A stretch of 64,000 nucleotides of DNA from Plumapathes pennacea. Lineage: Eukaryota; Cnidaria; Anthozoa; Antipatharia; Myriopathidae. The stretch spans positions 4,281,501 to 4,345,500 of the forward strand of contig OZ038464.1 in NCBI GenBank assembly GCA_964036295.1, read 5' to 3'. The translations under genes and the position numbers were made by a program. The notes beneath the pieces are model-generated. The model searched no databases. It had not been told where the DNA came from and worked only from the letters and a program-made list of their open reading frames with translations. Positions 29,751-63,443 of this stretch are shown here, in pieces (position 1 is the stretch's first letter; every line of letters starts with the position of its first letter).

Positions 29751-32700
29751 TTAGCGTTTCTTTCTTTGGAAGTCAGCCCGAAGTCTTGCCAAGTTCTGTT
29801 CCTGCTCATCAAACACCCGTTGCCTGTCTCGCATGGTCGCTTCTATATCCCTTCTCTGGCGGGATAGTGCCTCCCTTTCCCGCTCCGATTGTCGTCTTTG
29901 TTCGATTAGGACATTTTCCAGCTCTTCTCTTTCGTCCTTCATCTTAGTTTCAAACTTTTGTAGGGCTCTCTCTTGGTCTAAGATGTGTTGTCTCTCAAGA
30001 GCTGCTATCTAATTTGGCGCGGATAAAGACAAAGGATTAGTTTGATGATTCGCTCAGTTGAACGGTGCCGCCATCTTGGATCCAAAGCGAGGCTAACCTG
30101 GCACGAAATTCGCCAGACATGAAACAAGAGAGCTTCGTATCGCTCTGAAGCACCAATACGTCTAAAGAGGAGATGCACATCTCTCACTTGGGGAGTTACA
30201 TGCACACATTTCCAAGGTAACCTTCTCAGTTATGCCAGGACAGCCTCGTTTTGAAGCTCGTGCCAGTTCCCGTGCAGGGAGCCCATTGAGTTTCCATTCA
30301 AATTAACTATTGGTTTGAATTATCAAGAGTTCGAATTATCGGGATATTTTACAGTGTTAGCAAGTCAAAGCTAATTTAGAATCATTGAAACGTGACAGAA
30401 ATACAACAAAATATTACCCTCTCCTCTTTTTCCTTTAGCTCCGTTACCATTGAAGTGTTTTCACCCTATGATGGAAAATAACAAAGAAAGAAAACATATA
30501 GATGGTAATTAAATTGCCAAAAAAAAAACGGAGTGTTAATAATATTGCATATATTCAATAAACCAAACGTGCCTTTGCTGATTTCGATAGTCATAGCTAT
30601 AAGCACGTGGTATACTATCAGACGCTCTTTTTCTGGCCAAACTTAATTAATTTATCATATTTGTCAGGCCTCTCGGTCCCGTTAGTGAAATAGAGTTCTC
30701 TAAAGAGATCAACGTTTTTAGCGAAAAGGTGCATTTAACCCTTTCACTCCCAAGAGCGATCAACATCAATTTTCTCCTTTAGTTTCTTACCAGTATGCAG
30801 TATGGAGAACTAATGGCTCTTTATTGAGAGAATCTGTATTTTGAGTTTAGAAGTGAAATCTTACCTGTAACCGCACGGCCTCCTCTCTCTCAAATTGAAG
30901 AGCAAGCTTCTCAGACCTTAAGTCATCATCCCTTTTCTTCAAACGCAGAAGCATATTTAAGTTCTCTCTCATTTCTGTTGTGAGTTTCTGCAAAAGAAAA
31001 CTTAGAAGTAAGAAAGACAAAAACGTACATTGCCCTCTTGAAAATACCTTTAGAAAATAGCCTCTTTGTAAAGAAATGTATGAATAGTTTTTTAAAAGTA
31101 TGTGTGAGTGGTTGGCGTGCCCAGGTCGACTCGTGGAGAGTGTCTTCTGTCCCTGGAACAACTTTTGTTTCCCAGGCTTTCGTTTGAAAAAAAAAAAAAA
31201 GACTAGATATGCTAATAAAAATAGCGCTGGTTTTGTTAATAGTTGAACGAGTTATTTTGTCAACTTTGTAATGTTTAAACCAAAGATGCTGTTTGGTCTA
31301 GATTTTGTTTTCTGACAGTTTTTCTGTAATTGGTGCTGTGGGTAATACTTAATGGTGTTGGTTTCGAAGGTTAATTGAAAACTTCAGCAACTATATGTAA
31401 GTCGAAAGAGGAATATAAATCCACCTCCATCTGACTCGTTCTAGGAGAAGAGTAGTACCTTTTGATCTGTGGTACTACAAGCTAATAGTTGTTTTGAATA
31501 ATTGTGCTTTTTCGTGTTGGGAACCAGATATTTTCTAGATACAAACAAAAGCATTGAATTTGGTTGATAGGGCCCACTTCCTTGAATAATTGTCACAAAA
31601 AAAAAAGAAAAATGCTCGCACCTCTTTTAGAACGTGAACGAGGTTGGCATAAAGCGCCTTGGGGCCTTTCCTCGGGCGTCCGAACTGATCCTTCACCTGG
31701 TCGTAAACGGAGTACAGTTGTGTTGGTACGATGTCATAGTCTCGCCGGTTCTTATAAACACGCTGGAGGACTGGTTCAATGTATTGACTCCTCAGCATGG
31801 CTTCCCTGTTGCGATAAAACTCTTCTGTTTCGGAAATGTTTCTCTTCAGCCACATGCTTTCAATTTCCTCCTCCTTTTCCTGAGATCAAGGCATTGATAA
31901 TCATTATTTTATTGTATCGTCAAATCTCTCTTAACGGACACCCATCTAAGACGGACACCTGCAGTAGAAACGGTCCCTGCCGTTTCTTCAGTCATTCACT
32001 CTAACTGCCTCTCTTTAAGACGAACACTACTCAATAACGGACAGTTATAGCTGGTCCCAAAGGTGTCCGTCTTAGAGGACAGTTCACTCCAGATGTTCGT
32101 TTTAGACTGATGGGAGTTTGTCTTAAAGAGAGTTCAGTGAGAGTAAATGATTAAAGAAATGGCAGTCATGTGTTCGTCTTAGACAGATGTCCGTTAAGAG
32201 GACGTTAACTGTAAGTAAATTGAAACGCATAAAATTGGTGCTACAATCAGTGACAAAAGTCTTGGGACACTCGCACAGTTTCAGTAATTTATCTACTGTT
32301 TCAGTTGAACTACAACCCCCCTCCCCCCCGTTCAATATTGAAACCGGCATGAACCTGTTCTTCCAAACACACGCAATATTGCACAGAGGGGAGGGGGGAG
32401 AGTGATGGTTTCGCGCCTTTCAGTACGCTAAGTCAATGACTTGTGTCTGTGATACTTCAATTTTTGAAAGTGTCCCAAGAAGTTTTCTCACTGATTGTAG
32501 TCTGAGTAAGCAGTGTTCATACAAGTTAGAAGCCCGCTGCAACGTACCGCCAAATCTCTCAGATAACTCCAAGTATTTGCTAGCTCCATTCCAAGTGTTT
32601 CAAATTCAAAATGCTGTACGGACAATAAGTTGGCTTCGCGATGTGCTTTCCTAATTTTCTCGTCCTCACACGGGAAATCTTCCTTCTTCATCTGCTTCTC

Positions 32701-34163
32701 CATTTCGTCTTTGTATAAATTCAGGCACGTTGAGAAAGCTTCGGAACACTTGAGGTACACATAGCTTTGCCAGGTGCTCTGGATGCATGGAATTGATCCA
32801 GGGGTGTTAAGAGTTTTTAGATGTTCCTCCACCATCATAGAAAGAGCTAAGAAGAGACAGATAATAATGGTAGAAATACAAAAGAATAAGAGAATAATAA
32901 TAGAAGCATACATTGTAACATTGTACTATAGATAGTTGTGTATACATTTATAAAAACAACTTGTAAACAAACGCATGTTCGTAGCTCTATACAATGTGTT
33001 TTCTCTGTGCAGCGAACTTCTCGACATTCAGGATTAGAAATAGATTGACTTAATATTTATAGCACTCTCATAAATAACAGGAAGTCTTGGGTGCCGGACC
33101 TGGAACATATATCATAAAGATACACTAACCAGAACTATTGATTCTATTCTTCAATGAACGAAACATAGTTGCATTATGCGGAAGCTTTTAATACACAAAC
33201 TATCCATTTATTGCCAACGAGCAAGCCGAGCGAAGACGGTCGGCTTGCAAGGCGGCCAGCATAATGCCACGCGAAGTATTGCAGCAGGCCGAAAAATTCT
33301 CGCTTGAGCTGTTAAAAGTGTAATATTCCCTGGAGACGTTGATGCCGGAAATATTAGAGCCAACAGAGCCAATGAAAAGAGATGTTGATTTATGGTTTTA
33401 CCGTTCTTAGCCAATCAGGAGGGAGTATTTTGCACGAGGCTAACACATGCACTCACTAGAAAACACACGCAGATACAGCAGGAAGAAAGAAGTTCATACC
33501 GGTGATAAATGTGAGACTATTTTCAAGCTTGAAAGGCTCTAAAAATGTTGAAATTACGTTTAAAACATATTGGCATTATTCGTGTTCGAGATGTCGTTTT
33601 TCAATCTTTATGCAACGGGAAATCTGAGTCAATATGTCAACACATGAATACGTGAATGTGTCGTTTGTATAAATACTAAACTCTCACCTTCTCCAGTTAT
33701 CAGTTCGCCCTGTAAACTTCTATTTGGAGTCAGCTTTGCTTTCACGTTTTGCTGAAGTTGCTTCACTTGTCTCGTAAATTCAGGATTGAGTTCTCTCTGC
33801 TCCTCTGCAGCATTCATATTCTGGACTACCAAAGGATTGTCGGCCGGAGGGGGAAGTTGAAAAGCGTCAAAATCACGGAAAAGCTTTGTGACATTCTCTT
33901 CAAGTTTCCTGGCATTTTCACTAGAGCCATGGTTAAAGACCTGAAAACAAAAATACAATCAAGAAATCGTCCCCGCGAATATTACAGTTACTAAGAGGCC
34001 TTTACCGCGGATAATGATCAGTCTAATCATGTTCTGTTATATCTCTCTGCTTTCAAAGCGATCAGAATATTTTTGGAGCACGCATGCCGATGTAATAATC
34101 CTAAGTAAGTGATAAAACTTGTTCTATTTAATATACTATTATAATATGTATACTATGTATATG

Positions 34164-34204
<41 letters not shown>

Positions 34205-35190
34205 CTAGACATTTGCATGTGGTACAGTGTATATCTTTTTATAAGTCGTGTAGTATTTTGGCGAGTTGCGAATAATAGTACATGTTAATATAATAATGAC
34301 GATAGCATTATTTAGTGTGTGTGTGTGTGTGTGTGTGCTTACCTTATTGCTATGAAGCTATTTTCATGCTACTATATGCGATATTTTACGTTGCTAAGGA
34401 AATTGGATAAAAAACATGGAGCATTCATTCATTGATATGTATAATACATAAGACAGATATGGAGGATGTTACATGGCAAGGTTAATATATATTATGTATT
34501 GTATACATCAAGAACTGATTTGTACAGTAGGCGGCCATGGATAGATACTATTGGACAGATCGAAGCATAACACACAAAAATAACAACACTACCAACGAAA
34601 AAAACCAAACAGGGGGTAGCCATTTGTAGTTGTTTATCAAATTGTCTTTAAGTTTGCACTAAAACTTAGGTTTGCCTTACCTTTCCGACAAAATACTCTC
34701 TTAAGGTCTTGAACTCCTTGGGTAACTGTAGTATAACGTCCCTTAAAAGCCAGACGAAGGACGGGAATACTTTTCTGCAGCTTGAAGGGTCCACAGCCTT
34801 GTCCGATAGAACTTGGATTCTTTGTGATAGGTTGATAATGTGTCTACACACCCAAGTAAAGGTCAAATGCAAGACTGAATTTAAAAATGACATGAATACT
34901 GTGGATAAAAATGTTCTGCAGTCAAATATATTTGATATTTTGAATTATATTTAAAGGTAGCTTTCACTTTATGGACTACACATTTGTTATCCCATATTTT
35001 GCTCTAATTCGAATTCGTTACTGTAACTAGGTTTTGCCTACATATTTTTTCTTGGTTTGATGAACACTGCGGAAATACACTTTTTGCTGTGCGGTGACCT
35101 TGCTTTTGGGCCAGCGATCATTGTACAAACCAAGTGCAGATTTTGTATTTCTGTGTAACGCTCGTAAAAACTCGACTTAACCAAGATAAC

Positions 35191-35259
<69 letters not shown>

Positions 35260-35928
35260 CTATTGTATTGTACACTCCCTTGGGGTTTTTCAAGCCAATT
35301 TACAATTCATCAAACTAAACTATTTATAGAATACTAACAGTATAATATAAAACTTACAATATTCTCACTTGCAAATTCTTCTAAAAATATAGCCATAATA
35401 TAATACCCGGACAGCGATGCGTTCTTAATAGTCATTACATGTAGGATACTGCAATCCTTCCACATCAGATCGGTGAGGAACACCGACCGAGTTGTAAATC
35501 ATAATCGAGCTGAGAAGAACAGTCAGGGTTATGATGGAATGATCATTCTTCCCCTCGGCTTCAACAGCATTCGTTCCTTCAGAGTCTAGTAACACCACGG
35601 TGAATTCTTGTCCAGTCGAACGATCACGATATCTCTCTGGTACAACCCACAACCACATACCCATCGTTTCTGGATCAAGCGAGTGTCCAAGCGGAAATAC
35701 CTCTCCCTGATTGAAAATTCTGCTCAGAATGTACGACTTTCCCCTTCGGCAGGGGCCCACAATCGATACGACACATACGGGACCTTTGATGGCTCTCAGT
35801 TGACGTAGCGCGGCCTCCACAGGTCTCAACGAGGTACGAGGTGTATCGTCGTCTGAATGGTACTCGTTAGTTGTTTTATTCCAGCGGCAGTTATTTGGAA
35901 GGCAAAGAGGTGTGGCAAGTTTTGACAT
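29751..35928 (-). CDS. Guanylate-binding protein A (GBP-like GTPase, no CaaX box)
   Basis: Dynamin-superfamily GTPase of the GBP class. Exons: 35928-35450, 34843-34681, 33940-33688, 32846-32548, 31879-31622, 30987-30865, 30465-30418, 30008-29751; phases agree and give 626 residues. G1 is GPCRRGKS (residues 58-65), keeping the arginine corresponding to the GBP catalytic arginine finger. The switch I threonine lies in DPETMGMW, G3 is DSEG (115-118) and the guanine-specificity RD is in LLRD (192-195). A helical middle domain and a long charged helix follow, as in vertebrate GBPs of about 590 residues. Oddities: the G-domain intron of B and C is missing, and the last exon is a single 258 nt unit ending RKKR and stop, with no prenylation motif. 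A strong acceptor (TCTTCACCCAG) sits one base before the ATG, so a 5' UTR exon probably lies upstream. Confidence 0.93.
30735..30861. mobile_element. TTAACCCTTTCACTC-family MITE ending at a GBP-A splice donor
   Basis: Starts TTAACCCTTTCACTCCCAAG, contains GATCAACATCAATTTTCTCC and ends at AGAAGTGAAA. This truncated end reaches to within about five bases of the donor of exon 30987-30865. Other copies: 42680-42862, 49244-49453, 59216-59478 and 62082-62442. Confidence 0.6.
31915..32215. mobile_element. ~300 bp inverted-repeat element in GBP-A intron 4
   Basis: Imperfect inverted ends CTCTTAACGGACACCCATCT and AGATGTCCGTTAAGAG. Internal GGACACC/AGACGGACAC motifs repeat on both strands. A related GTTAAGCGGACACC motif occurs at 43560-43660 in gene B. 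Confidence 0.5.
32240..32503. mobile_element. CTACAATCAGTG-family TIR element
   Basis: Begins CTACAATCAGTGACAAAAGT and ends with the inverted CTCACTGATTGTAG, with AGTCTTGGGACACT subterminal on both sides. It overlaps the 3' side of the intron after exon 32846-32548. The CAGTGNCAAAAGT ends flanked by TA are Tc1/mariner-like (inference). A second close copy is at 41017-41240. Confidence 0.6.
34144..34205. repeat. TA-rich microsatellite in GBP-A intron 2
   Basis: TATGTATA grades into a pure TA run of about 20 units. A (GT)n run follows at 34314-34338. Confidence 0.85.
35189..35258. repeat. (AAT)n microsatellite, ~23 units
   Basis: Pure AAT array within intron 1 of GBP gene A, between exons 35928-35450 and 34843-34681. 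Confidence 0.95.
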
Positions 35929-36300: not shown

Positions 36301-36670
36301 AAAACCCACTGTCTAAATATTCAATCCATGAAAGCATCCGGCAGTTTTCTAAAAAGAGACCGGAAGAAATTGCATAAACAATTATCCCCGAGCGAAGCGA
36401 AGCGAAGTGAGGGTAATAATCACGGCGCTAATGCATTAATATCTCCTAACTTGGGGACTCCAAGCCTGTCGCCATCTCAAAATTTAACGTTCGTCTGTCA
36501 GTCAGTCTGTCTGTCTGGCGTACGACTTTAGGCGCGGTTACCCTGCATAACCAATAACAAAGGCCGGATCGATCACGTGATCACGTTTACTCGGAATGAG
36601 AGAAATTAGATTTGAGCGAAGCAATTAGATTTGAACGAAGCAACAATATATCGTAGCTGCGTTCACGAAA

Positions 36671-41334: not shown

Positions 41335-44300
41335 TTACATGATACTGCATTTCTTCTTCTTCTTTGGGCGTGGGGTAGGTCTTTGGTTCAGCTGGTTGAT
41401 TTCATTCTGCAGTTTCTGGATTTCAGTATTCCTGTTTTCCAAACTTTGCTTCATGCCCTCCACTGCCACCTATACTCATAAACAAGTAAAATATACCAGA
41501 AAACAATGACTATTATCCAGCCATATTAAAATAGAAAATGAAGCACTTTTTATGATGGATTAGACTTGATATCCCTTTACTTTAGGCTACAGGTACTCCA
41601 TTCTAACCTCAGTTCCCCATCTTTTCTCTCCAAAGGGCTCCCATGTCTATATTTCACTGTTAGTAGACTTTATAGAATGTGTTCTTTTACACTTTCCAGC
41701 TTTTGGAATGCTCCACCTTTTCATATTATTCACCCCAGTACAGGGCCATGTTTTGCTCTTTGCTTTATGACCTGATCTATACACATACATGTATTCACTT
41801 GCGAGAACTTTAATTTATATCTTTAATGCATTTTTTTCAGGGGAGGTGGGGGGGTGGGGGGGGGGGGGGGGGAAGGCCTTGACCTAGATTATTGTTTTTT
41901 ATTGTTCAGGTATTTGCTAATTTGAAAGGACTATCCTGTAGTCAAAGACACCAATTATGTTCATTGTAAAATTCTGTAAATATTAGTGCCTGGTTTTTAT
42001 ATGTATATTTTTAGTTTTTTTTTTTTAGTTTTGTTAAAAATAGAAACTTTTTAGTCCAAGATCTATTTCCCGTCAGGCTTATTATTGAAGGTTGTTTTGT
42101 GTTTCAAAGAGGGTTGGTTAGTCAGTTTGCTAACAGTATGTACAAGTCCATTTGGGCCATTAGTATTTTGATAGTGCAGTAACATGTGGGCCTTTATTTT
42201 GTGTGGGGGGGGGGGGGGGTGGATTTTGGGATCTATGATCTGTGTCTTTATAGTATAATTATAATTATCTAATACATTTATTTATTTATTTATTTATGGA
42301 GAAGGGATTTATTTTTGGAAGGTACTTTCTTAAGGTATACCCATTTACAATCTTACCTGAAGTGTCCTGTTTTGGTCCTGCATGCTCTCCCTCTCTTGCC
42401 TTATCTCATCCATGTTTGCCGTCATTAAGTTTCTCATTTGCTCTCGCTCAATGGCCAAATTGTTTTCAAGTTGTTCTTCAAGTCTTCGGCGATCTTCTTC
42501 TTGTCTCAATTTCAAACGTTCCATCTACAAGAAATGGTCGTTCTCGTATCAGGAACTTAATTCAAACTTTCCTCTCCCACCCTATTAAAATTCTATCATT
42601 TTCCGACCGTGAACATGTTTCCTCTGAGGCCATTGTGTGTCCACGCTAAACAAAACTATTTAAAATCCCCAACTTGCTCTGACGAAGGGCTAAAAGTGAT
42701 CAACTTCAATTTTCTCCTTCAGATTGGGCAGCACAAATATATCATATAGTAAGAAGAACTTGGTTTTTGATACCTTGCACAGATCCTATCAATTTTCCCT
42801 ACATCATGTTCTTCTTACAAAGCTGGGAGAATTTGTATTTTGAACTTGGGTAAAAGGGTTAATCTACATATACTACAAAAACCTTTGATTGACACATTAC
42901 GATTTTGCCGTTTCGCTTGAAATGCTTTTAAAAGTTCTGTCAGTTTTTGTACTTTCATCAAAATGTTTGTCTGTGACATGAGATTGCTCGTGTAAGTTTT
43001 TGAGGTCCTGTACACGTCAGTTCACAAATTCTCCATTCGTTGTATTGCTAAGAATAACCAATTTCAACTCTGTTTCTGTTGGTGAGAACCAGAAATATAT
43101 TAAACATGAAGAAGAAAGACGTGCTCAGGTGAAAACTGAATAACCTGTGCAATTCACACTTTGTCGCTCAAACAGATTTTTATTCGGATGCTGGGATAAT
43201 CTTTAATTATCTTCAATTTCGTCCGAATTTTGTTTCTTGTGAATTTCGCATGTAAGTACAATCCATACCTCGTTTTCCTTCCTATTGCGTTCCTCCTCAA
43301 GACGCTTGTATTCCTCCTAAAATATATAAGTGTTCACAGGATTTTAGCTCATGAAGATGTTCACTGATATTACACGTTTATGGAACACTTGTTTGTAGTT
43401 AAACTTCGCTTTTCTCCCATTCGTTTTCATCCTCTTCCCGGTTCCTGCTTTTATTACGATTATTACGATTATCATTTTGTTTATTTATCTTTCTAGTATT
43501 AGGTTATCGTATACAATGAAACCTGTATTATATGGATCCCTTATTAAAAGGTCACCCTCTGTTAAGCGGACACCAGCTTTGGTCCTGAAATTTTCTTCAC
43601 ATTTTTGAGGTAAAACGAACCTGTATTTCAACGGACACCCCTGTTAAGCGGACACCAAAATTAAGCAAGTGTGTACGTGTCTTACTTTACCACCCGAATC
43701 ATATCTTTTGTTAACAACGCGGCCCTTACCTCCATCTTTTGTCTCTCGTTTTCTTCATGAGCTCTCGCAGCTCTCTCTTGAGCCAAATTTTCGTCATAGT
43801 CTTTAAGCTGTTCCAGATGTTTCACGTGCTTTTCCATTTCAGTTTGCAGTTCCTGAACATAAACCGCATCGCACAATGAACAGTGTGAATTATGTAAAGC
43901 AAGAGATGGTGATGGAAAAAAGGTGGCTCCAGTGATCAACAGGAATCTGTCAAATTGGCTAAGGTTCAATACATCACTGTGGAGGATAGGTAATAAGTAT
44001 CTATGCTTCTTCCAATTGATTATGACTACTATGATAGTACTTTATTTAAACTTGTGACGTACGTAATACATCTTTGTCGCCCTGGCTAGACTTTTAAAAC
44101 TCTCCTGGCAAGGGAATATGCTCCAAAGATCTAAATCCAGCATTAACAAGTTGTATAGGCTCTATCACTTACGGGATGGAAGCTATTAAAAACTCTGGCA
44201 CACACGTCTTTGGCGCCCTTGGCCTGATCCTGAAAACTCTCCTGAATAAGAGAATATGCACCAATGATCTCAGCAAATGTCAAATCAGACCAATTGTCCC

Positions 44301-46574
44301 CATTAAGGATGGAAAGGACTGGCTCCAAGTGTTGGCGTTTCAGATTTTGCAACAAATCTGCGCAGAAGTTCTCAGTCTCTCGATCGTTGTCTTCCTGCAG
44401 TGTTCCAAGTCGTTTCTCCGCCTCCGCCTAAAAATAAAGCAATACGTACAATAACGTACACATTAACACAGCCGCGTTTATTCTTGCCTCGAGAAACAAA
44501 ACTTTCATTTTTGTCTTTTTTTTTTACTTAAACAATAATTATTCTTAACATTTGTATTCAAAGCACGGGGCTTATATCTAGGTAACTTAATATGTAATAT
44601 AGAATGAACTTATGCTTTTTATCGGACAGATGTACGGCACTATCACACATTAAGTTGAAGGAAAACAATGAAAAAAACGACTATTTTACGTCCGAATATG
44701 CAGACATGAAGCAAAACGGTTGGATTACATACAAAGCCTGATAACGTTGAATTAAGTTGAAAATTAGCGTATGTTATGCCTTTCAAAAATCATGTAAGCC
44801 TAATTAAAATGGAGGCTTTCAATCATTTAAAAGTAAGTAATTATTGTCTGTAGAACGTAAACTTGCGAATGGAAATCGTCTCTCGATGCATGCTAGGGCT
44901 TGTTTGTCATACAATTTATCATTTTATCATACGTGTATATACGAAAAATATGTTACTTTATATTTTTAGAGCATTTATTTGTTTAGTACATCTTGAAATG
45001 TCCGTCACTTGTTTATCAAACGTCATAAACTTGATCTATTTTATCTAAGTTAAGCAAGCATTTTTTTGGGAGGTGCATGTTCGTGTGGTATAATGGGCGC
45101 TTGTGTGGAATATTGGGAACACTTTCAGGGTGCATTGGGCATGGAGTCTTCTCCAATTCAAATTGTAACAGTCTATTTGAGAAGATGGATGAGGATAGGA
45201 AGATAGGAGTTATGCAGTGAGAATTGATATTTTAATCAGCTTTTATATCCGCAAGTCATGAAAGTCATCAAAAGCCAAGTTCTCCAATCTGTATGATACT
45301 GTATATCTCTGGTGAGAAATCGATCTAATAAGAAGTTCAGAAGTTGATTATCTTTGGCTGACAGGGTTAATAACAGTGTTGTTTAGAACTTTTTGGTATT
45401 ACTGCATGTTCAGCACAAAGATAAATGCAAAGATAGTAAGGTTAGTGTATTAACTAAAAATATGGCAAACAAACAAGAACGAAACAAAACAGTAGCATCT
45501 GTCCATGTCAATCAAGTCGAATAATATGATACCTCAATTGGCTCTTACCAGCCATTCTGTTGAGTACTTTTCAACACTAGCAGCAGAAATCCCGCGCGTT
45601 TCACCTTCAAATAGTGCCAGACCCCTTTCGAGCGCGGCCTGATGACTTCGGCGAAGTTCATCCGTGTCGCACGGCAGCATGTCCTTCAACATTGAGGTCA
45701 AGACGTCGTTGTAGAGATCAAGCGCTGCAGTTTTAGCCTTAGTGCACTGACTATGAAGAAACGTTTCCCAAGTGCTCTTGATGTTAGGAACTGTCCCGGG
45801 CGTATTCAGGGCTTTCACATAAATCTCTGTCATGGCTGCCAAAGCTTGCAAAAGAAGGAGCACAATTTCATGCCGATTAGCAGTGAAAAGTCATTTACTG
45901 TAAGAACTGTCCTTTGGTGTATTCAGAGCTTTTAAATAATTTTTTTGTTGTGGTGACTAAAGCTTGCAAAATAAGAAACACCATTTTATGGCAAATAGCA
46001 GTTAGATATTGTATTTTTGATGTAAAACACGTAATTAAGCTAAATAGCTGGCGGTAACTACTAACGTTTCGTGCTGTGTATACTCCAAGTGCTCTTAATT
46101 TTAACAAGTGACAGGTAACCGTCAGATTATATAGGCATCCTGATGTAATGTATTTCTTTATAGTTATAGATGTTTATCAGTTGGTCAAGTGGTATATATA
46201 ATTGCCTAAATATATATTTCGATAGGACAACCTTTTTGGGATTGACTGTGTAAATATATATGTTTGATTTTGTCTTACCTTCTCCCGTCACGAACTCTCC
46301 ATCGTTGAAGCTGCATTTTGGTGCCAGCTTTGGTTTAATGAAATCCTTGAACTCCTCCACTCCATTTAAGAACGATTTACTGATCCCTTCCTGCGCGCTG
46401 TTTAGCTGTTGCGTGACTTCTGGACTGCTCGATGGAGGTGGTAGTTTGAACGCATCGAAGCCTGGAAAGTAGCTTAAAATGCTCTCTGCCACTTCCTTTG
46501 CTCCGCTGGATTTGCTGGCGCCACCAGACTGAGATTTTGGCGCCTTAAATACCTAGAAATAATAGCATAAATTT

Positions 46575-46606
<32 letters not shown>

Positions 46607-48740
46607 GCTATTATAGTTAATGGTAACCTTAAAGATAGAATTAAAAGGCATATACCCTCTTCAAGAAGTATTCTTTGATGTCTTCACAACCTTTGGGTAA
46701 AGCCAGAACGACATCTCTCAGGAGCCACACGAAGAAGGGAAAAGTTCTGTGCAGGGTTCCAGTTGACGACCCCATTTGAACACGCTCCGATAACTTTGTG
46801 ATAAAGCTGTATCCTAGTTAAGGTTTAGGTTCTGTATACTTCCCCGAGAAAGAGAGAGACTGAATGAGACAGATCAGTAACAAAGAACGAAAATTAGAAT
46901 GCATCTGATAAAAAAAATAGTCGATTGAATTCAATGATATATCTATAAATTATACTATAGACGTGTATGTGCTATTTTGCTGTAACTATTTCCCAAAAAG
47001 TCTTCAAGTTATATTTCTAAAACGAATGCAAGTGTTTGATGAGGTTGCAAAGACGGAGAGCGATGAAGGAGGCCAAATGCTTTTATTGCTTCGAGGTGTT
47101 TGGAATTCCTGATCAAAGACAAAGCACGACTTTTTAAATGACTTTTCATGGCTCAAACACTCGAGCCAGTGTTTGCCGCTGTATCAAAACTCGGATTGCC
47201 ACCTGACTAAATGCAGTGCGCTGATTGGCTCATAAAATCATGAATTATTAAGGATTTGAAAGCAAAAGGAAAAAAAAAAGGAGAAAGCCAGGGAGGGAGG
47301 TAAAACTAGAAGTACACACTGGGCTGAGGAGACAAAATTAGTGAACACAAGAAAAGGGATGACTACAGATTGTGGCGTATGTACGAAACGAGAGAAACTC
47401 GATATAGGTTTTTTTTGTCTTTTTGCTTGTTTACGAAATTGAATTTTCTAAAGATACTCGAGGTCCTCCAGGTCTTTTCTGGTTGGTACCCCAGCTGAGT
47501 TGTAAATCAACACAGAGGCCAGCAAAACTGTGAGTGTGAAAATCCTGTGATCGTCTGTTTTTTCTCCGCTGACGGCATCGATGCCTTCAGAGTCCAGTAG
47601 AACCACATTGAGCTCTCTCCCATTCTGATCCTGCGAGGCCAATCAGAAATATTTTTTGTTGTATATGTGCGATACATTTATACTCGTCTAAAGCAAGGGC
47701 ATGATTGCTACGAGGATCAGCTTATATGTGACTTTTTTAGGCCCGAACATAAGCTTAGCATGCGCCTCTGACTATGCACTGCAACTTAGTTCGAAAATAA
47801 TGAAACTGTACGTTTGATTTTATGACGCCTATGTGTTAGTCGGTGTTCTGTGTATACACCGTTGATATCCTGGGCTTTCTACAAGATTTGAGCCGACGGA
47901 AAGCTTAGAAAAGAATTAATCTGCGTAATAAGCTAAGCCGTTTGTTCCTTCCTCGGTTCTTGACTTTAATACTAAGGGGCCCTCTCAGGCAATTGATTGT
48001 TTTTGTTTACATCTGTAAATATAATTAAAAGATTTGGCTGAATTTGGTTTCCAACACGAAATTGCGTAAAGGATCAAAAGAAAAATAGGCAAGTAGCACT
48101 TTTAGGTGAAAAGAAACCGTATTGTTCTGCTCAAACGAGTCGGATGGAAGTGGATTGCTGTTCATCTTTCGACTTCCGGGGGCCCTAAAAATGGCGGATC
48201 AAGGAGTTCGGCGCGTAAAGGACTGTGGGTGAGAGGGCCCATTTAATATAGTTAATATTTTTAGTCTATATTTCTCTGTCAACTTCGTTTTGTGTGCTTT
48301 TACGTTAATAACATCATGTCCCGCTTCTTCCGATTTCCACCGTGCTGTTCGTCTGTATGCCCTGGTCCTACTTCAACAAACGTACTTCGTGTAACTATGC
48401 ACTAAAACTCGTAATTTATGAATCTTCTGTCGTGTACCTTGTATTTCTCGGGCACAATCCACATCCAAATGCCCATGGTCTCAGGGTCCAGACTGTGTCC
48501 AAGCGGAAAAACTTCTCCTTGCTCGAAAGCTTTGCTCAAAATGTACGATTTTCCTTTCCGGCAAGGTCCAGCGATGGACACCACACATACGGGACCTTTG
48601 ATTTGTCGCAGCCTTTCTAGCGCCGTGTCTGTGACGCACAAGACTTCACGATCCTGTTCTTCGTTCTGGGAGTACTCTCCCGTCAGGGGATCCCAGGAGC
48701 AGTTGTTTGGCAGGCATAGTGGAACGGCTTGACTTTCCAT
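41335..48740 (-). CDS. Guanylate-binding protein B (polybasic CSIM CaaX terminus)
   Basis: GBP-class GTPase of 641 residues in ten coding exons: 48740-48438, 47630-47458, 46806-46656, 46552-46279, 45844-45549, 44427-44173, 43852-43730, 43316-43269, 42524-42357, 41469-41335. G1 GPCRKGKS (58-65), switch threonine in DPETMGIW, G3 DSEG (114-117), LLRD (187-190). The helical middle domain starts near GFDAFKLPPP. The C-terminal third is a charged coiled coil. The protein ends PKKKKK-CSIM: a CaaX box with X = Met, which normally directs farnesylation, behind a lysine patch like the polybasic region of human GBP1. The Met at MESQ was chosen because the paralogue starts MEGQ and because an acceptor (TTTCATTTAAG) lies just upstream, so translation begins in exon 2. 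Degenerate copies of parts of exons 5 and 6 lie nearby. Confidence 0.94.
41845..41872. repeat. Poly-G tract in the last intron of GBP B
   Basis: GGGGAGGTGGGGGGGTGG grades into an uninterrupted G run. A second G run lies at 42206-42220. Confidence 0.9.
42680..42862. mobile_element. TTAACCCTTTCACTC-family MITE, diverged copy
   Basis: Has GTGATCAACTTCAATTTTCT near the left end and GGGAGAATTTGTATTTTGAA then AAAGGGTTAA at the right. Lies in GBP-B intron 8. Confidence 0.55.
44055..44142 (-). pseudogene. Decayed partial duplicate of GBP-B exon 6
   Basis: On the plus strand, CTTTGTCGCCCTGGCTAGAC then AAAACTCTCCTGGCAAGGGA and ATATGCTCCAAAGATCT parallels CTTTGGCGCCCTTGGCCTGA, AAAACTCTCCTGAATAAGAG and ATATGCACCAATGATCT in the real exon (44173-44427). 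It lies just downstream (sense) of the exon donor and has indels and no donor. Confidence 0.6.
45895..46107 (-). pseudogene. Decayed partial duplicate of the GBP-B exon 5 boundary
   Basis: Just upstream (sense) of exon 5, the sequence AGAACTGTCCTTTGGTGTAT...CTAAAGCTTGCAAAATAAG parallels the exon's GGAACTGTCCCGGGCGTATT...CCAAAGCTTGCAAAAGAAG. The frame reads LQALVTTTKKLFKSSEYTKG against LQALAAMTEIYVKALNTPGT in the real copy. It then stops, so it is a non-functional exon relic. Confidence 0.65.
47976..48240. mobile_element. ~265 bp element with GGGCCCTCTCA ends in GBP-B intron 1
   Basis: GGGCCCTCTCAGGCAATTG at the left and GTGGGTGAGAGGGCCC at the right form imperfect terminal inverted repeats. 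No open frame. Confidence 0.5.
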
Positions 48741-51053: not shown

Positions 51054-51055
51054 GT

Positions 51056-51583: not shown

Positions 51584-54095
51584 CTACAAAATGACGCAAC
51601 CACCCGACTCTTCTACTTGTGGTGGAGGTCTTGAAGCAAGAATTGTTATCTGCTCCTGAAGCCTCTGAATCTCTGCATTCCTGCTCACCATGGATTTGTT
51701 CATTCGCTCCAATGCTTCCTGTAAAAAAAAGGAAAAAATAGTAACAAGAGAAGCGATAAATTTCTTCTTAATAATAGCTTCTAACTTGCTAGTTTCCTGA
51801 AGTTGCTTATAATATATACTTTTAAAAATGACACCTTCCTTTAGTCCTTTTTGACGGTTTACGACCGTTATGTCACAAAGGGTTTTTTCGTCATTGGCTA
51901 CGAGTGGTTAATCTGTTTAATCTGCTATCCTTAATTTTTCACGGTTTTATTTTATAACATGCGTAATAGACACAAAAACCAAAACGAACAAGAATAGAAA
52001 TAATGCGGAATTCTATAAGATAAATGAATGAATGAATGGTGTCTATTTAAAATCGGCATTCTATCAATAAAATGTCACCTCCAGGGTCTTGTTTTGGCTC
52101 AGCATGGCTTCCCTGTCTTGTTTGATTTGTTCCATGTTGGCTGTCATCATGTTCCTCATTTGCTCACGTTGAGTCTCCATGTTCTCTCTGAACTGTTCCT
52201 CCAATCGTATGCGGTCTTCTTCTTGCTTTTCTTTCAACAGTTCCATCTAAAAATCATGAAAGTTTGAAAGAAGCGACAAATATATATTTTTAATGCAAAT
52301 AATTGTGCAATCTTCTAGTTTGCTTTCCTGAAGTTGTTATAATGTGCCTTAAGAATGACAGAGCCTCTGCCCTTTGATCCTTAGCTTGTGATTCTAGATT
52401 GCTAAGGGGCCATTTCAACAAAACAATTACAAGTGTATTTTACGAGTTGGACCAATTTTCTCACACATTAAAACACATGCTAATCTAATTATAAGACCGC
52501 CAAATAATGTTCCAGTCACGTTTGTGAGACCTATATCTGGAACCTTTTCCAGACTTCTGTAAAATTAGATTCCGCTTGAGGCCCGGGGGGATACTCATAA
52601 ACTTTGGTACGGGAAGGCTCCGCCTGGACGTTCAACCCCTTACCCTTTCAAATACCCTTTTTGGGTCAAAATCGGGACCCTTTCATATACCTCCAGTAAA
52701 AGATTTGATTGTTCTATTACACCGACAAAGCGCCTGACAGGATGTTGTACTCCGAATGAAACATGAAAATCTTGAATTAAGATGTAGTTGTTCCATGGCG
52801 GAGTTTCCGGTTTTCGCACCCCTTTCAAATACCAACGTGATTCAACATCACTCGACGTGGTTAGTGTTTTAGTGACCCTTTCAAATACCAAAAATGACAC
52901 TTTCCCATACCCTATCTAATACTTGAGTCAAAAAAAGGGACCCATTTCGGGCGGGACCTCCCCGTATAGCCGATCATAGGGAGTATCCCCCCCCCCTCCC
53001 CCCCCCCCCCCCCCCCCCCCCGTGGGCTTGAGGAAAACATATGGGTGATGTGGGAGAATAACTAAAATACTGATGCTGCCAAAATATGGACTAACCTCTC
53101 TTTCTTTCCTCTTGCGTTCCTGTTCCAAACGCTTATTTTCTTCCTAAAAATATTAGACATTTTTTCTAGTGTTCCTTTTGATAAGCGGCCTAAGATGATG
53201 TATATTTTCTAATGAAACGAGTATAATTAATAAAAACAGTTTAATAATTAATGCCATGCTTCATTGTCCACTCACTGGCAAGCACTTAGAAGGTAGTTAT
53301 TGTAATGAAGACATAGTTATAGGTTCAGTTGAATTGGACTGATCGAAAGGGTTAAGGTGGATGCATTATTAAATGTGCCACACTGTTGTATTCTTGCAAT
53401 TTCGTGTCAACCCACGGCCGATTACAATTTTACCGGAAGGCATAGATATTATCACTGGGTTTTCTCCAATCCTTCACCGCTACTACCAACAATCACATAG
53501 GTGCGATTTGCCAACACCAACGTAAAAGGTGAGGGCTGGTAAACTTCAAACAAACCATAAAGAAGACTGCCACCGGCCGCATGGGATTGTATTCACAAAA
53601 CGACCCTGATTTATGAAAGACTAAGGCCCGTTTTAGACGCCGCTCCCCACATGCGCCAAACTTAATACAAATGAGTAAAAACCACTGTATGAGTTAATTT
53701 GCATTAGGTTCGGCATGTGCGAGGAGCGGCGTTGGGTAACTTTCCCTCGTTTTTTAAGTTTTGTCTTATTTTTAAACAAGAAGTGGTACGTAACTCATCT
53801 TGTTTGAAAGTAAGAAAAATGTTGAAAAAAAAACCTTTCCCTCTGACGTTAAGAGTATCACACAAGTCCTACCTCCATTCTACGTCTCTTTTCTTCGTCT
53901 GCTGCTCTTGCAGCTCGCTGCTGGGCGAGTTTCTCGTCGTAATCTTTCAACTGCTGCAGATGGTCAACGTGTTTCTCCATTTCGGCTTTCAATTCCTGAA
54001 TTTAAGACACGATTAGCTACTCAGCACACCTGTTTTCATACGGAAATACATATTTTTTGTCAATCAAGTCGTTCTTAGAAAGAATAAAACTAGGA

Positions 54096-54153
<58 letters not shown>

Positions 54154-57100
54154 TATAAAGCATAATGACATCGTAGTTATTTGAATTATGGTAACTCCTC
54201 CTGCAACAATTCAAGCCTTATCCATATTGTACAGAGGTTTTCGGATAGCTGCCGAATCAAAGTAATTGTGTGATTGCTATAATGATGCGTTTGCTTCGCT
54301 TTTGGATTGGTCCCTCTTGTCCAATCAGGAAGCGATCGTGTCACTAATTGGAATTCTCGCATATTAACCAAATTCTATGGCTCATGGATCTCCAGTTTAA
54401 GGTTAAACTAATCGCAAATTTGTTTGGCTTCTGGTTAGTTAAACATGTTTTCTTACAATCTTTGTAATTGATGAGCTATTACAAACACATAATGATCTTG
54501 CATAGATTTTATCGATTACCGTATTTAGTTGGCTAAGCTACTTACCGGATGGAAGTTAAAGAAGGCTCTGGCACACACATCCTTGGCTCCCTTTGCCTGG
54601 TTTTTGAATCCCGTCTCGATAGCAGAGTAGGCCTCTATGATCTCGGTGAACGTCACTTTAGCTCCCTCAGAACTGATCAGTTGCGCGAGGACTGGTTCTA
54701 AGTGCTGCTTCTTGAGACTTTGCAACAAGTCAACACAGAAGTCTTCTGTTGCTCGATCGTTCTTCTGTTGCCAAATGGACAAATTTTCCTCTGCTTTGTC
54801 CTGGACAAACGAAACGAAGAAATTAATTGCAGGGGACGAAAAACTGCACTTCGTGTTTTGTGTGCATTTGCGCGCCCGCGATGAAGTCGTCTCGCGGTAT
54901 GCTTTGTATACGTACAGTATATAGGGTTTTACATAATAGAAAGCAACCGAATTCCTCTGTGCCCTGTAGTTATAGAAACGCGCGGGCATTTGAGAGAGCA
55001 CGAGGGACGGGGACGTGTTGAGTTAAAATGCTCCAATCAGTTTGCTTGTAATATAGACCTGTTCTAGATTTTATAAAATGACATACTACAATTTCCTAAA
55101 GGTGTGTTTTCATTGCACGAAAAAGGAATTGTTCTCCAATTAAAAGTCACAAATGACTTAAATAAAGAAACCTTAAACTAAACATGCAATTGTGTGTTCA
55201 TTAAATATACGTTTTTTTGTTCTTTTTTTGACAAGTTTTAACCTAAAACTATAAAGACTTTTAAAAATTGTTAAAACTTTAAAAAAAAAAAAAAAAAAGT
55301 TATGGACATATATGTCTCACCTTCCAGTCGGTTAGATATGCGTTAACATGGATGGCAGAAATACCCCGTGTTTCTTCCTCAAAAAGTGCCAGGCCCCTCT
55401 CAAGCGCGTCCTGATGACTTCTGCGCAACTCATCTGAGTCACACGGCAGCAGATCCTTGACTTGTGACGTCATAATGTCGTTGTAGAGACCAAACGCCGC
55501 ATTTGTGGCTTCAGTGCATTTGTTCTGGACAAATGTCTCCCAAGTGCTCTTGATATTGGGAACTGTCCCCGGAGTGTTGAGAGCATCAACGTAAAGTTCT
55601 GCCATGGCTGCCAAAGCTAGAAAAAGGTGCGAGATCAAGATAGCTAAGGCCCTCTTAAACTTCCATTTGATTGGATGTCATTTGCTCAACCAATCAGCGC
55701 CCAAACAAATGCAATCAGGAAGAAAAAGCCCATGAAGCTTGGTTACTATCATAGCTGATAAATCAGGACACGTCAGCCATATAAGATTACAACAGATTAG
55801 AATGTTCCGCCCTAGTCTGCTCGCAGCCGTTTTTGTGGCACCTTGTGCCCCTCGGTTACGACCACAAAAACGGCTGCAAGCAGACTAATTCCGCCCCAAA
55901 GGGTATCGTTTTCAAGTATTTTAGCCTGAAATAGGGTATAGATTTTGCCATCTTTTATCGGGTGCACATTTCTGGGGTACAGGTCTGAAATAGGACGAAA
56001 GTTAGTATATATTGGTCTGAAATAGGGCTGCACACTCCCACCAAATAATACTAAGAGTTCCCTTCCCTCTGATTGTCTGTGATATGATATACACGTCGAA
56101 CGGGTAGCAAAATATTGCATTTGTTATGACAATTTGCATATCACGTAAAGTACCTTCTCCTGTGACAAGCTCTCCATCGGTGAAGCTCCGTTTTGGTATT
56201 AACCTCTGCTTTAAATTTGCGGAAAACTCATCTACTCCTTTCAGGAATTCTTTGTTAACGCCATCGGCTCCCGCGCTGTTCATGTTCTGCGTTACTTTGG
56301 GGTCAGTGGATGGAGGCGGCAATTTAAATGCGTCGAATCCTGGGAAGAAGCTCAAGATGCTTTCTGCCGCTTGTGTTGCCGTGTCCTTTTCGTCAGATCC
56401 TGTTTGAGCCTTAGGCGACTTGAATACCTGTACACATCAAAACATCATCAGCACCCGCATCTACTTCAAAATGACTTGTCTTTTTTGGGGGTGGGGGGGA
56501 GGGGGGGGGGGGGGGGGGGCTGAGGGAACAATGTCAGCTTCCATTGATAACAGCCTTCACAGCTGACGGAACTATAACCGGCGTTAAACTTAAAAAAAAA
56601 AACCTTATTATTCAATGAAGGATCGACGGTTTCGGCTCGTGTGTGGTTGATAGGCTTATTTAGAGCCAGTTTATGTTATTTATTATGGTTAACAATTTGA
56701 AATCCAACATATTCTATGGAATTAATTTACTAAATTCCCCACGCTAAGGTACCTCTGTTCATTCTGAGTGCCAAAATAGCTACCAATGTATGTTCCTGGC
56801 AAGTGGGGAAGGGGGAGTGGTAGAAATACATCGACCTTTTCATGGATTTAATTAAAATATTAAGTTTAGCCCGGCTATGAAAAGTGCGGCGTCTAAACTG
56901 GACCTTAGTAAACGTAACAGAATAACAACTGGAAAGCTGTAAACGCCCCGGGGGAGGGGGGGGGGGGGTACTCCCTATGATCGGCTATACGGGGAGGCTC
57001 CGCCCGAAAGGGGTGTATTTTTACGATCGAGGTATAAAAAAGGTATAGGAAAATGACGTTTTTAGGTATTTTAAAGGGTCAATAAAAAGGGTGGAGCGAG

Positions 57101-59138
57101 GAAATGATTTTGGTATTTTAAAGGGGTACGAAAAACGCCAGGAAAAACCGGGGAAAAAAAACGGCGGAAGACCGGAAACTCCGCCTTGTTAAAAGAGGGA
57201 AGCACCCCGCCATGGAATCGTCTGCCGTACGCATCAAAGGTATAAAAAAGGGGTGCATTTGTACTGGAGGTATATAAAAGGGTCCCGATTTTGCCCCCAG
57301 GATGGTATTTTAAAGGGTAAGGGGTTGACAGCCCGGGCAGAGCCTCCCCGTACAAAAGTCCTCTGGGTACCCCCCCCGGGGTAAACACTCACCCTCTTCA
57401 AGAAATAATCCTTGATGTCAGAACAAGACTTCGGTACTTCCAGGACTACATCGCGGAGAAGCCACATAAAGAAAGGGAACGTCTTATGAAGGAGATTTAC
57501 ATCGGCTTCAGATTCCCCTTGAGATCCCATCCGCACACGTTGGGAAAGTTTGACGATAAAGCTTTGAAACGTTAAGGAGTGTTGCTCCTGGGTGAATCTT
57601 AGTCCCTGTAATGCTAATCGAATGCTTTTAACAGATTTTGATGGAGCTATTTTTTCGAGTCTATATTATTGTTATGCACTAAGTCTAAATCTTAAAGAAA
57701 CTAATTCATTTTTTTGTCTCTATTTATTTCAATTTTAACTCATGGTGCACCCAAGTTTTGGGGATTATGTTTGATTGGAAGTGTTTTCTAGTGGTCTTTG
57801 TGATTACATTTACAGGAATTTAGTTGAAAACTGACATATCCTATGTATCAAGCTACTTAAAAATGTCTAAACGGCTGTAAATGTCGAGCTACACGTAAAC
57901 GAGGTCGTGTGTATTCGTACAAAGCGGAACCACAGCAGTTTTGAGGCATTCTAAAACAAGCACACAAATTAAACACTGTTTAGTTTTTGGAAATCTTACA
58001 TCATTTAACCACGCCAATCCGCGCGGCGGCCATTTTGGGATATAGGTGTATACAAACTTAACTCTTAGTGATTTAAGTGCAGTAAAACATTGGCATTTTT
58101 ATAGCTTTTACGTCCCAGTGTGTACAATGAATAGTATAGGAATATAATACAGGATATATAACAATATACTCACTATAGCATGGCACACTAACCAGAAAGC
58201 AGAATGAATAAATTAAACTATAAAAGGATACTCGAGGTCCTCTAGGTCTTTTCTTGTCGGTACACCAGCTGAGTTGTAAATCAACACAGAGGCCAGCAAA
58301 ACTGTGAGAGTGAAAATCCTGTGATCGTCTGTTTTCTCTCCAGTCACGGCATCGATTCCTTCAGAGTCCAGTAGAACCACAGTAAACTCCTGGCCATTTT
58401 GGTCCTAATTAGAGTACACATTACAACATTACAAGCATTACCAGATAGCAATCACAGAAAGCAAGATCCACCATGGACATATTTAAATTTAAAAGGTTCA
58501 GCAGACAATATAACACGTTAAATATAATGCGCTTGGAGGCTTTTGAAAACTGTTGCATATTACGATAATAATCGTGTTTTTATTAGTTATGGAATTATAC
58601 GAAAGGGATGCCTTTCTAGGCAGTATTTCGAGGTATATTTAGCGGTATATGAAGGCTTGATGTTCCTTACGTACAGACAAGAGATAGAATGTTGGTCCTG
58701 CAGGTGCATGAAATTTATGTGAAAGGGGTAACTTTTTTTTATAAAAATGGTACATGAAAGGGTAAGAGTCTGGACCTCTGGGTAGAATACTTTACTTAGT
58801 ACACCTCCACCCCCCTGTCTGTTTTTTTTCTTCACCTTGTATTTCTCGGGCACAATCCACATCCAAATGCCCATGGTCTCAGGGTCCAGACTGTGTCCAA
58901 GCGGGAATACTTCTCCTTGATCAAAAGCTTTGCTCAAAATGTACGACTTTCCTTTCCGGCAAGGACCAGCGATGGACACCACACATACGGGACCTTTGAT
59001 TTGTCGCAGCCTTTCCATTGCCTTGCATATGACCCACAGGTTTTCACGATCCTGTTCTTCTCTCTGGGAGTACTCTCCCGTGTGGGGATCCCAGGAGCAG
59101 TTGTTTGGTAGGCAGAGTGGTACGGCTTGGCCTTCCAT
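51584..59138 (-). CDS. Guanylate-binding protein C (CVIL CaaX terminus)
   Basis: GBP-class GTPase of 647 residues in ten coding exons: 59138-58836, 58404-58232, 57561-57393, 56427-56154, 55616-55321, 54800-54546, 53995-53873, 53143-53096, 52246-52079, 51718-51584. Nine of the ten exon lengths equal those of gene B; the third is 18 nt longer (GSQGESEADVNL insert). G1 GPCRKGKS (58-65), DSEG (114-117), LLRD (193-196). The C-terminal coiled coil ends EESGG-CVIL, a CaaX box with X = Leu, predicted to be geranylgeranylated, without a lysine patch. An acceptor (TTTTATCACAG) seven bases before the ATG implies an upstream leader exon. A repeat with poly-G ends terminates about ten bases inside the intron after exon 3. 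Confidence 0.94.
52579..53022. mobile_element. CCCGGGGGG-TACTC element with poly-C end in GBP-C intron 8
   Basis: Left end GCCCGGGGGGATACTC; right end GGGAGTATCCCCCCCCCC running into about 35 C-rich bases. The body repeats CCCTTTCAAATACC-type motifs. The right subterminal GTATAGCCGATCATAGGGAG is the inverse of the left part of the 56947-57383 element, so they are one family. Confidence 0.6.
53640..53735. repeat. Short hairpin repeat in GBP-C intron 7
   Basis: GACGCCGCTCCCCACATGCG at the left pairs with CATGTGCGAGGAGCGGCGTT at the right, around an AT-rich centre of about 55 bases. Confidence 0.5.
54098..54152. repeat. (TTA)n microsatellite
   Basis: About 18 units of TTA in GBP-C intron 6. 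Confidence 0.95.
55811..56045. mobile_element. Foldback and decayed CCCCAAAGGGTATCG repeat in GBP-C intron 4
   Basis: 55811-55887 has arms TAGTCTGCTCGCAGCCGTTT and its near complement. It is followed by CCGCCCCAAAGGGTATCGTT and GGTCTGAAATAGG motifs that recur at 60100-60420. Confidence 0.5.
56493..56520 (+). repeat. Poly-G tract in GBP-C intron 3
   Basis: GGGGTGGGGGGGAGG leads into about 18 uninterrupted G residues. Confidence 0.9.
56947..57383. mobile_element. CCCGGGGGG-TACTC element at the GBP-C exon 3 donor
   Basis: Left end CCCCGGGGGAGG, then poly-G and TACTCCCTATGATCGGCTAT; right end GGGTACCCCCCCCGGGG. The body contains GGTATTTTAAAGGG-type units on one strand. The right end lies about ten bases inside the intron from the donor at 57393/57392. 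Confidence 0.6.
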
Positions 59139-62081: not shown

Positions 62082-62442
62082 TTAACCCTTCCACTCTCAA
62101 GAGTAATCAAGTTAAATTTTCTCCTTCAGTTTCTCACCAAATATATGTTATATAGTAAGGAGAACTTGGCTTCTGATGCCTTGCTCAGATGACAATTGAT
62201 TAAGCTATCAGTTCTCTCTACGGTAGGTTGGTTGTGATCGTCCGGGTTAGAGTAGTCTCCAGGAAGAAACGTCAGTCACCAACAACAGCCTTCCTGGAGA
62301 CTACTCTAACCCGGACGATCACAACCAACCCACAGCTCACACTCCTGGGTTCAAACTAATTGCCAAGTTCTCTACATTACCCATACATTCTATTCATAAA
62401 AGGTTGGGAGAATCTGCGTTTTGAGCTTGGGAGTTAAAGGGA
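62082..62442. mobile_element. TTAACCCTTTCACTC-family MITE with a nested foldback (62222-62357)
   Basis: The outer MITE runs from TTAACCCTTCCACTCTCAAG to GGGAGAATCTGCG...AGTTAAAGGGAC. It is interrupted by a shortened form of the 49939-50179 foldback (GTAGGTTGGTTGTGATCGTC ... CGATCACAACCAACCCAC). The trailing CACACTCCTGGGTTCAAA also flanks the 49939 copy, in inverse orientation. Confidence 0.65.
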
Positions 62443-62527
62443 CAAAAGTCAATTCTTCATACCGTATATTTAGATTTTGCAAACGTTTGGGTTTCGCTCG
62501 TGTCAGCTGCGATGTATCTGAGCAAGT

Positions 62528-63443
62528 TCACGAAATAGCACAAAACGTTCTTGAGTCTGATTTGGGTGGATTCCTTAAGGCAAGCTGCTGCATCTGATCC
62601 TGAAGCCTTTTGACCTCTGCATCACTGGTCAACATGGCATCATTCATTCGCTTCACTTCTTCCTATAAATAAACGATTCGTAGCTTAGTCTCTGTTTACG
62701 TTTCCCTCCCAGCAAGGACAACTTTTGTCCATGTAAACGCCCAAGGTAGGGTTGCCCTCCTGGAGGGGAGGGGGAGGGGGGGGGGGGGGGGGGGTGGGGT
62801 GTTGGGGCGAGTTGTGTTTCAAAATTTGTACAAACAGCTGTATACATTACAGAGCTTATATAACCGTGATACGTGACCTAAGTCTACACAAGACAATTGC
62901 CTTTTCTACACTACTGTATTATCGGTAAGGAGCTCGTTCGACCACGGTCTCTTGTCGCACCGGAAGTCGTCGGTCCGCCATTTTATAGGCTTGTAAACTC
63001 GGAAAACTATTGGAAAGATCCATTTCTCAATCCGACTCTTTGTAGAAAATCGGTTTCAAATTATCATGGTATTTCGTCCAGTTAAAAAAGCCTTCAAAAT
63101 TTAATTCATTTCTACATAAGCAAACCTATATTTGTTACAGGCCGGAATTGGGAGAATGATAAACATATTAAACCTTAACTAAACACTGGGTTGACAATTA
63201 TCGTTAAATATATATTACAATAGGTATACGACAGATCGAGTTGTACAATAATTCAGACAATAAATGTTTTATAAGCTACAGTTTTTACATCACCTCTAAT
63301 AACTTCTGTTGGCTAAGCAAGGCCTCTCTTTCATTTCGTATCTGTTCCATATTTTCTGCCATCCTATTTTCCATTTCCTTGCGTTGCGTTTCTATATTCT
63401 TCATAAACAACTGCTTCTCTTCTCGTTCCGTCCTTGGCTCCAT
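62528..63443 (-). CDS. Guanylate-binding protein D, last two exons (CAIS CaaX terminus)
   Basis: Exons 63443-63294 and 62662-62528 match exons 9 and 10 of genes B and C. The final exon is again exactly 135 nt. The coiled-coil helix reads METQ-style repeats (TQRKEMENRMAENMEQIRNE) and continues to LALRNPPKSDSRTF-CAIS and stop. CAIS is a CaaX box with X = Ser, predicted to be farnesylated. The exon 9 equivalent is 18 nt shorter than in B and C. The GTPase and middle-domain exons lie beyond the right edge, so whether the gene is intact is unknown. Confidence 0.85.
62765..62797 (+). repeat. Poly-G tract in GBP-D
   Basis: GGAGGGGGAGG leads into about 17 G residues, in the last intron of gene D. 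Confidence 0.9.

Follow-up and report, generated by a model that had tools for sequence, protein, structure and literature searches.

Guanylate-binding protein genes at the locus

The window, i.e., the whole analyzed stretch of 64,000 nucleotides (C3:4281501-4345500; G+C content 39 %), harbours on its minus strand a cluster of multi-exon guanylate-binding protein (GBP) genes. Read from right to left, these are D (63443-62528), C (59138-51584), B (48740-41335) and A (35928-29751), of which D is represented by a tail only. The gene blocks were located by comparing the open stretches of the window among themselves, their order being matched across A, B and C, and were joined with a splice-site model; the last two exons of A were placed by eye from the sequence.

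29751..35928, minus strand: GBP gene A, 8 exons, 626 aa; exons (high to low) 35928-35450, 34843-34681, 33940-33688, 32846-32548, 31879-31622, 30987-30865, 30465-30418, 30008-29751
29751-29765, minus strand: end of gene A, RKKR stop, no CaaX, as read from the sequence
41335..48740, minus strand: GBP gene B, 9 exons, 625 aa, from homology to the other window genes and the splice model; exons 48740-48438, 47630-47458, 46806-46656, 46552-46279, 45844-45549, 44427-44173, 43852-43730, 42524-42357, 41469-41335
41335..41364, minus strand: end of gene B, KKKKK-CSIM stop (CSIM and stop at 41335-41349), polybasic stretch plus CaaX, predicted to be farnesylated
51584..59138, minus strand: GBP gene C, 9 exons, 631 aa, from homology to the other window genes and the splice model; exons 59138-58836, 58404-58232, 57561-57393, 56427-56154, 55616-55321, 54800-54546, 53995-53873, 52246-52079, 51718-51584
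51584..51607, minus strand: end of gene C, SGG-CVIL stop (CVIL and stop at 51584-51598), CaaX, predicted to be geranylgeranylated
63294..63443, minus strand: exon 8 of D, coiled coil; the exon starts with an ATG directly behind the AG acceptor, a feature shared with B and C
62528..62662, minus strand: exon 9 of D, ending RTF-CAIS stop; headless GBP tail
62528-62542, minus strand: CAIS and stop of D, CaaX, predicted to be farnesylated

The exons of B and C are of equal length except for exon 3. The model of gene A is based on exon-by-exon homology to B and C, with the splice model covering exons 1-6, and has a single exon in place of exons 1 and 2 of B and C. The final translations of all three genes contain no internal stops. 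Their products passed the Pfam cut-offs for the GBP domain (PF02263, cut-off 21.1 bits; A 140.2, 9e-41; B 138.1, 4e-40; C 149.5, 1.3e-43) and for GBP_C (PF02841, cut-off 24.3 bits; A 43.3, 4e-11; B 77.1, 2.1e-21; C 86.3, 3.2e-24). An additional match of B to Bacillus_HBL below its Pfam cut-off is probably a coiled-coil effect. The P-loop GPCR(R/K)GKSY, DSEG and LLRD were read directly in A, B and C; replacement of the T of TLRD by a hydrophobic A, I or V is known for mammalian GBPs, while in A, B and C this T is an L. A PDB search with a rough join of the gene C blocks matched GBP2 (E 8.6e-35 over query residues 34-597 of 642), GBP1 and, over a shorter stretch, GBP5, with atlastins being far weaker (2.7e-6). 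Identity among aligned residues amounts to 441/624 for B/C, 256/606 for A/C and 244/600 for A/B. Judged by their sequences, A, B and C are complete guanylate-binding proteins.

C-terminal ends

The four terminal peptides reported in the earlier note (RKKR, KKKKK-CSIM, SGG-CVIL and RTF-CAIS) were recovered exactly, all on the minus strand; its CaaX ends exist and have held their position in B (CSIM), C (CVIL) and D (CAIS), with A (RKKR) lacking a CaaX. Each of the three motifs lies in an open terminal exon of phase 0 preceded by an AG acceptor. This last exon comprises 44 codons plus stop in B, C and D and aligns without gaps through the CaaX (B VAVEGMKQ...PRPKKKKK-CSIM, C EALERMNK...VEESGG-CVIL, D EEVKRMND...SDSRTF-CAIS), the C and I being invariant and the X residue as well as the residues just before the cysteine varying. 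Thus aligned, B, C and D evidently inherited one homologous CaaX exon. The last exon of A has 85 codons plus stop and ends in FQRKKR. A remnant of exon 9 behind gene A was rejected, the best tblastn match (E 0.033) being a lysine run in stretch L011.

A CaaX-like ending precedes 25 of the 6670 stop codons (0.37 %) in the six frames of the window, GBP ends included. Three CaaX ends out of four would thus arise by chance at about 2e-7 if the three were treated as independent; since the ends of B, C and D are homologous, this value says no more than that the motif stands out from noise. Chance occurrence of the CaaX was rejected on the basis of this stop codon count and of the position kept in three homologous exons.

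According to the CaaX rule, Met and Ser as the X residue favour farnesylation and Leu favours geranylgeranylation. The rule agrees with the human GBPs, for which CTIS is described as farnesylated and CNIL and CVLL as geranylgeranylated, GBP-3 and GBP-4 staying off membranes (PMC2998424). In human cells, GFP fusions carrying CTIS, CNIL or CVLL all localized to the Golgi, and a polybasic stretch added the plasma membrane (PMC2998424); given this shared destination, the X residue alone predicts little of where a protein goes. Lipid type and localization of B, C and D are predictions.

The headless tail D

The earlier note counted four paralogues; D, however, consists only of the last two exons (8 and 9), A, B and C being complete. 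tblastn of A-D over the 40 kb upstream of D (C3:4345001-4385000; stretches L009, L010, L029 and L030) revealed no convincing exon of a GBP head, but only a charged repeat open reading frame (ORF; E 1.6e-4) and a 13-residue match on the plus strand (E 0.76). Likewise, the genome-wide scan yielded no PF02263 match between the window end and a further GBP gene (E, see below), whose nearest match at C3:5285555 is about 0.93 Mb off. The 94 amino acids of D have no GBP match in Pfam, only DUF3987 below its cut-off, so that a GTPase head is missing from what was found. Searching with the D tail (E up to 1) gave seven matches, i.e., D twice, C twice, gene G (0.01) and two negligible ones (0.09, 0.18). 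Assignment of D to gene C was rejected, since D, on the same strand as C, is located 5' of it and reaches its stop before gene C begins.

Comparison of C and D yielded a nonsynonymous rate (dN) of 0.365 and a synonymous rate (dS) of 1.98 (dN/dS 0.185), dS of B/D being saturated. A neutral copy would stay stop-free over 94 codons with a probability of 0.24 at 0.1 substitutions per site and of 0.05 at 0.3. Open and constrained as it is, D either lost its head late or has a tail that still works. In the latter case, D might represent a working stand-alone gene, with the exon 8 ATG initiating a 94-residue prenylated coiled-coil peptide that attaches to the stalk of B or C and thereby modulates or prevents their assembly. 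The ATG just behind the exon 8 acceptor, the open frame and the kept splice sites would fit this, as would the low dN/dS versus C at a dS of about 2, considering that a dead copy would probably hold stops past 0.3 substitutions per site. However, the constraint may predate the loss of the head, and the ATG is inherited, being found at the start of exon 8 in B and C as well; a stand-alone D is regarded as unlikely.

Tandem arrays are prone to collapse in assemblies, and an exact direct repeat of 1660 bases is located upstream of D, which could point to a head missing through assembly error or lying far off. This is improbable, in view of the 40 kb upstream containing no N and of the lack of any PF02263 match on C3 from the window up to gene E, a comparison that covers C3 but not the C8 and C11 matches as candidate heads. 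The repeat itself (L009:4069-5728 and 6168-7827; 2.1-kb period) reflects either a very recent duplication or an assembly artefact.

Further GBP genes and host

The profile scan with PF02263 covered the genome of 290 Mb in 24 contigs and yielded 20 matches from 22 candidates, all of which were scored: ten of them within A, B, C, E, F and G, another four at C3:1.92 Mb, four more at a single C8 locus and two on C11. The allocation of matches to genes is our own, the C8 locus and C11:1.58 Mb entering as profile matches only. Three further genes are related to those of the array:

C3:5286348 to 5273747, minus strand: gene E, ends DRVRNKRV, no CaaX
C3:5309462 onward, plus strand: gene F, sharing with A a fused first exon and a small exon of 16 codons
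C3:190516 to 182674, minus strand: gene G, 640 residues, reads through, no CaaX

Script-made models were poor past exon 4 in case of E and past exon 3 in case of F. Exon 5 of gene E contains a frame break in this assembly (C3:5282345-5282351), indicating either a pseudogene or a sequencing error. The tail of gene F was not found by a coiled-coil filter on stretches L014, L027 and L028.

The last exon of gene G corresponds to exons 8 and 9 of B and C joined, and carries the same SGG as C, followed by the end GLFQTLGKVVDGVVGFFK. This 18-residue end, situated at the point of the CaaX in C, is strongly amphipathic, with a hydrophobic moment of 0.62 matched by 0 of 5000 shuffles (for a stretch picked after viewing). 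Single-sequence AlphaFold2 modelling of the last exon predicted a long helix (residues 2-85), a loose linker and a low-confidence second helix (99-113), block means of the confidence from residue 91 on being 48, 68 and 57. Atlastins possess a C-terminal amphipathic helix as well. Gene G resembles them in ending with such a helix where C has its lipid signal, but differs in being a GBP by its exons; the likeness is judged on the end helix alone, and G is located outside the window. Taking the tails of A, B, C, D, E and G together, a single genome contains CaaX tails, some with lysines and some lacking them, as well as plain basic tails and an amphipathic helix.

GBP-like GTPases encoded in long single open frames (457-634 aa) are also present at C3:1921346-1929078 and C11:1058025-1059140, apparently forming a class separate from the array.

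The claim of the earlier note that the DNA stems from an early-branching animal is borne out by a hexacoral mitochondrial genome. Contig C24 (17,711 bases, code 4) contains the first part of cox1 (PF00115, 5.6e-94) followed by a LAGLIDADG open frame (2e-12), the rest of cox1 as recognized by eye, and nad4 (Proton_antipo_M, 8.9e-83); ARAGORN detected two tRNAs (Met and anticodon UCA). A cox1 intron of this sort and the presence of only two mitochondrial tRNAs are characteristic of hexacorals.

Phylogeny and the likeness of B and C

The phylogenetic tree was calculated with A, B, C, E, F and G as well as human GBP1 and GBP2, omitting D and rooting at the midpoint. E entered with exons 1-4 (49 % of columns), F with its first three exons (47 %), G without its last exon and the human rows without their last printed block. 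The six GBPs of the genome cluster apart from the two human ones (support 100/100), so that the variety of tails described here is not orthologous to that of vertebrates. Among the six, A pairs with F (90/94, below the tool's mark of 95/80) and B with C (92/93), E and G being weakly placed (82/83); the tool's star was assigned to just one of the five inner branches. By its sequence, A groups with F in a class apparently different from B/C.

Hence, of the independent diversification proposed in the earlier note, the separation of the six GBPs from human GBP1 and GBP2 stands, while the common inheritance of one CaaX exon by B, C and D contradicts independence within the array. The presence of all four termini as described and the cysteine kept in B, C and D would still be in line with four full paralogues carrying four independently evolved membrane addresses. 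Yet the B, C and D tail is shared by descent, no head of D was found, A groups with F, and E and G lack a CaaX; this makes four independent addresses very improbable.

A CaaX that is ancestral in animal GBPs, kept by B, C and D while A, E and G lost it, is a serious possibility, though one to which we give somewhat less than even weight; in that case, only the residue drift and the tail of G would be new here. The CaaX occurs in several vertebrate GBPs and has been proposed as the original state in mammals, from which it was lost repeatedly (PMC12486975), and a rainbow trout GBP is described with, a zebrafish Gbp without it (PMC9005921). On the other hand, only the B/C/D group has a CaaX among the ends read here. 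With a single genome compared to two human sequences, either a gain or a loss of the CaaX would fit.

Synonymous divergence between B and C is unevenly distributed. dS is 0.24 in alignment columns 0-105, 0.48 in 105-170 and 3.36 in 170-230, and is saturated in 230-318; along the entire B/C alignment, the part at columns 300-400, roughly exon 5, has an intermediate value (dS 1.12), the segments 160-300, 400-490 and 490-632 being saturated. No such dip is observed for A/F, with saturation in columns 0-105 and a dS of 2.17 in 105-170. Exons 1-2 of B and C (48740-47458 versus 59138-58232) are thus synonymously alike, while introns and 5' flanks align no better than shuffles: similarity was not above shuffles for introns 1, 2, 4, 5 and 8 and for the 300-base 5' flank (e.g., z -1.4 for intron 1, -0.3 for intron 2 and -2.4 for the flank). 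With blastn, similarity extends 22 bases into intron 2 and elsewhere 1-2 bases beyond exon 1 and the start of exon 2. The simplest reading of these sequence patterns would be gene conversion, which, because the introns no longer match, stays largely limited to exons.

Proposed function and relation to vertebrate GBPs

Overall, the locus probably represents a hexacoral GBP cluster of three complete genes and the headless tail D that grew by tandem duplication. Most likely in the manner of vertebrate GBPs, the GTPase head would dimerize, followed by a helical stalk and a C-terminal signal setting the hold on the membrane, the whole serving intracellular defence. B would be farnesylated, its lysine run conferring a preference for negatively charged membranes, while C would be geranylgeranylated and bound more tightly; A, without lipid, may be cytosolic or brought in by partners. 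Following the same analogy, B is a candidate for a GBP1-like pioneer, C may be GBP2/5-like and A a soluble partner. D would have arisen by tandem duplication, its 5' part having been lost rather late. During tandem growth of the cluster, exon-limited conversion may have kept the heads of B and C alike and the last exon may have drifted. Tail diversification on a common GTPase is accordingly supported in reduced form: one inherited CaaX exon was retuned in B, C and D, and other tails are found in other classes.

Several points weigh against parts of this interpretation. The donors after exon 2 (exon 1 in case of A), GTATCC/GTATCT, are weak (scores -3.3 to -5.4). The dN/dS of 0.185 and the open frame of D speak against a long-dead remnant. 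Alternatively to gene conversion, synonymous-site constraint peculiar to B and C may account for their likeness. Furthermore, observations on immune control in Nematostella are mixed: GBPs are named among its poly(I:C)-responding genes, but GBP1 mRNA showed no significant change upon knock-down of the sensor RLRb (PMC8476169).

A more far-reaching possibility is a plug-in system, in which a uniform, converted head is combined with a last exon retuned or swapped among polybasic farnesyl, geranylgeranyl, plain basic and amphipathic-helix (G) tails, D acting as a working prenylated regulator of its neighbours; this combination is quite unlikely.

Human GBP1 (polybasic plus CTIS), GBP2 (CNIL), GBP5 (CVLL) and the unbound GBP3 and GBP4 share the same two domains and are likewise organized in a gene cluster (PMC2998424, PMC9005921). 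The present set resembles vertebrate GBPs in its mix of polybasic-farnesyl, geranylgeranyl and unanchored members (lipids here being predicted from sequence), but differs in forming a separate hexacoral radiation, in the headless tail within the array and in the synonymous likeness of B and C in exons 1-2. In primate GBPs, the polybasic stretch next to the CaaX is fast-evolving and decides bacterial targeting, the CaaX box being kept (PMC7240152). As in this motif of primate GBP1 and GBP2, the CaaX is kept here and the preceding residues change; the primate study compared orthologues, however, whereas paralogues of one hexacoral are considered here.

A review from 2022 called the presence and function of invertebrate GBPs unclear (PMC9005921). 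A full-text search for cnidarian GBP tails or for a GBP ending in an amphipathic helix gave none among the matches listed (titles and abstract starts; subscription journals mostly outside). A vertebrate-like tail pattern in an anthozoan is of moderate interest; the less expected parts are that D is headless, that the likeness of B and C is limited to exons, and that gene G ends in a helix. A hexacoral cluster that combines anchored and unanchored members in vertebrate-like fashion, yet has a history of its own, allows testing whether the use of lipid plus basic tail in cell-autonomous immunity is ancient or evolved on two occasions. Gene G would provide a natural test of the features by which a GBP attaches to a membrane, and D, if expressed, would be a GBP without its engine.

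Other features of the window

Within 1500 bp upstream, GAAANNGAAA cores (A 0, B 2, C 1; 0.28 expected) and NF-kB-like sites (A 2, B 2, C 1; without computed expectation) are too few to use. Scanning the window against Rfam gave no match at gathering scores. On the minus strand, 8391-12429 holds ion channel exons (Ion_trans 8.4e-07, plus 5.3e-04 below the cut-off), appearing TRP-like by eye. A repeated family of charged ORFs, which may belong to a mobile element, is present in the window at 7506-7880 (minus strand) and 36635-37012 (plus strand) and at L009:8576-9073 (minus strand).

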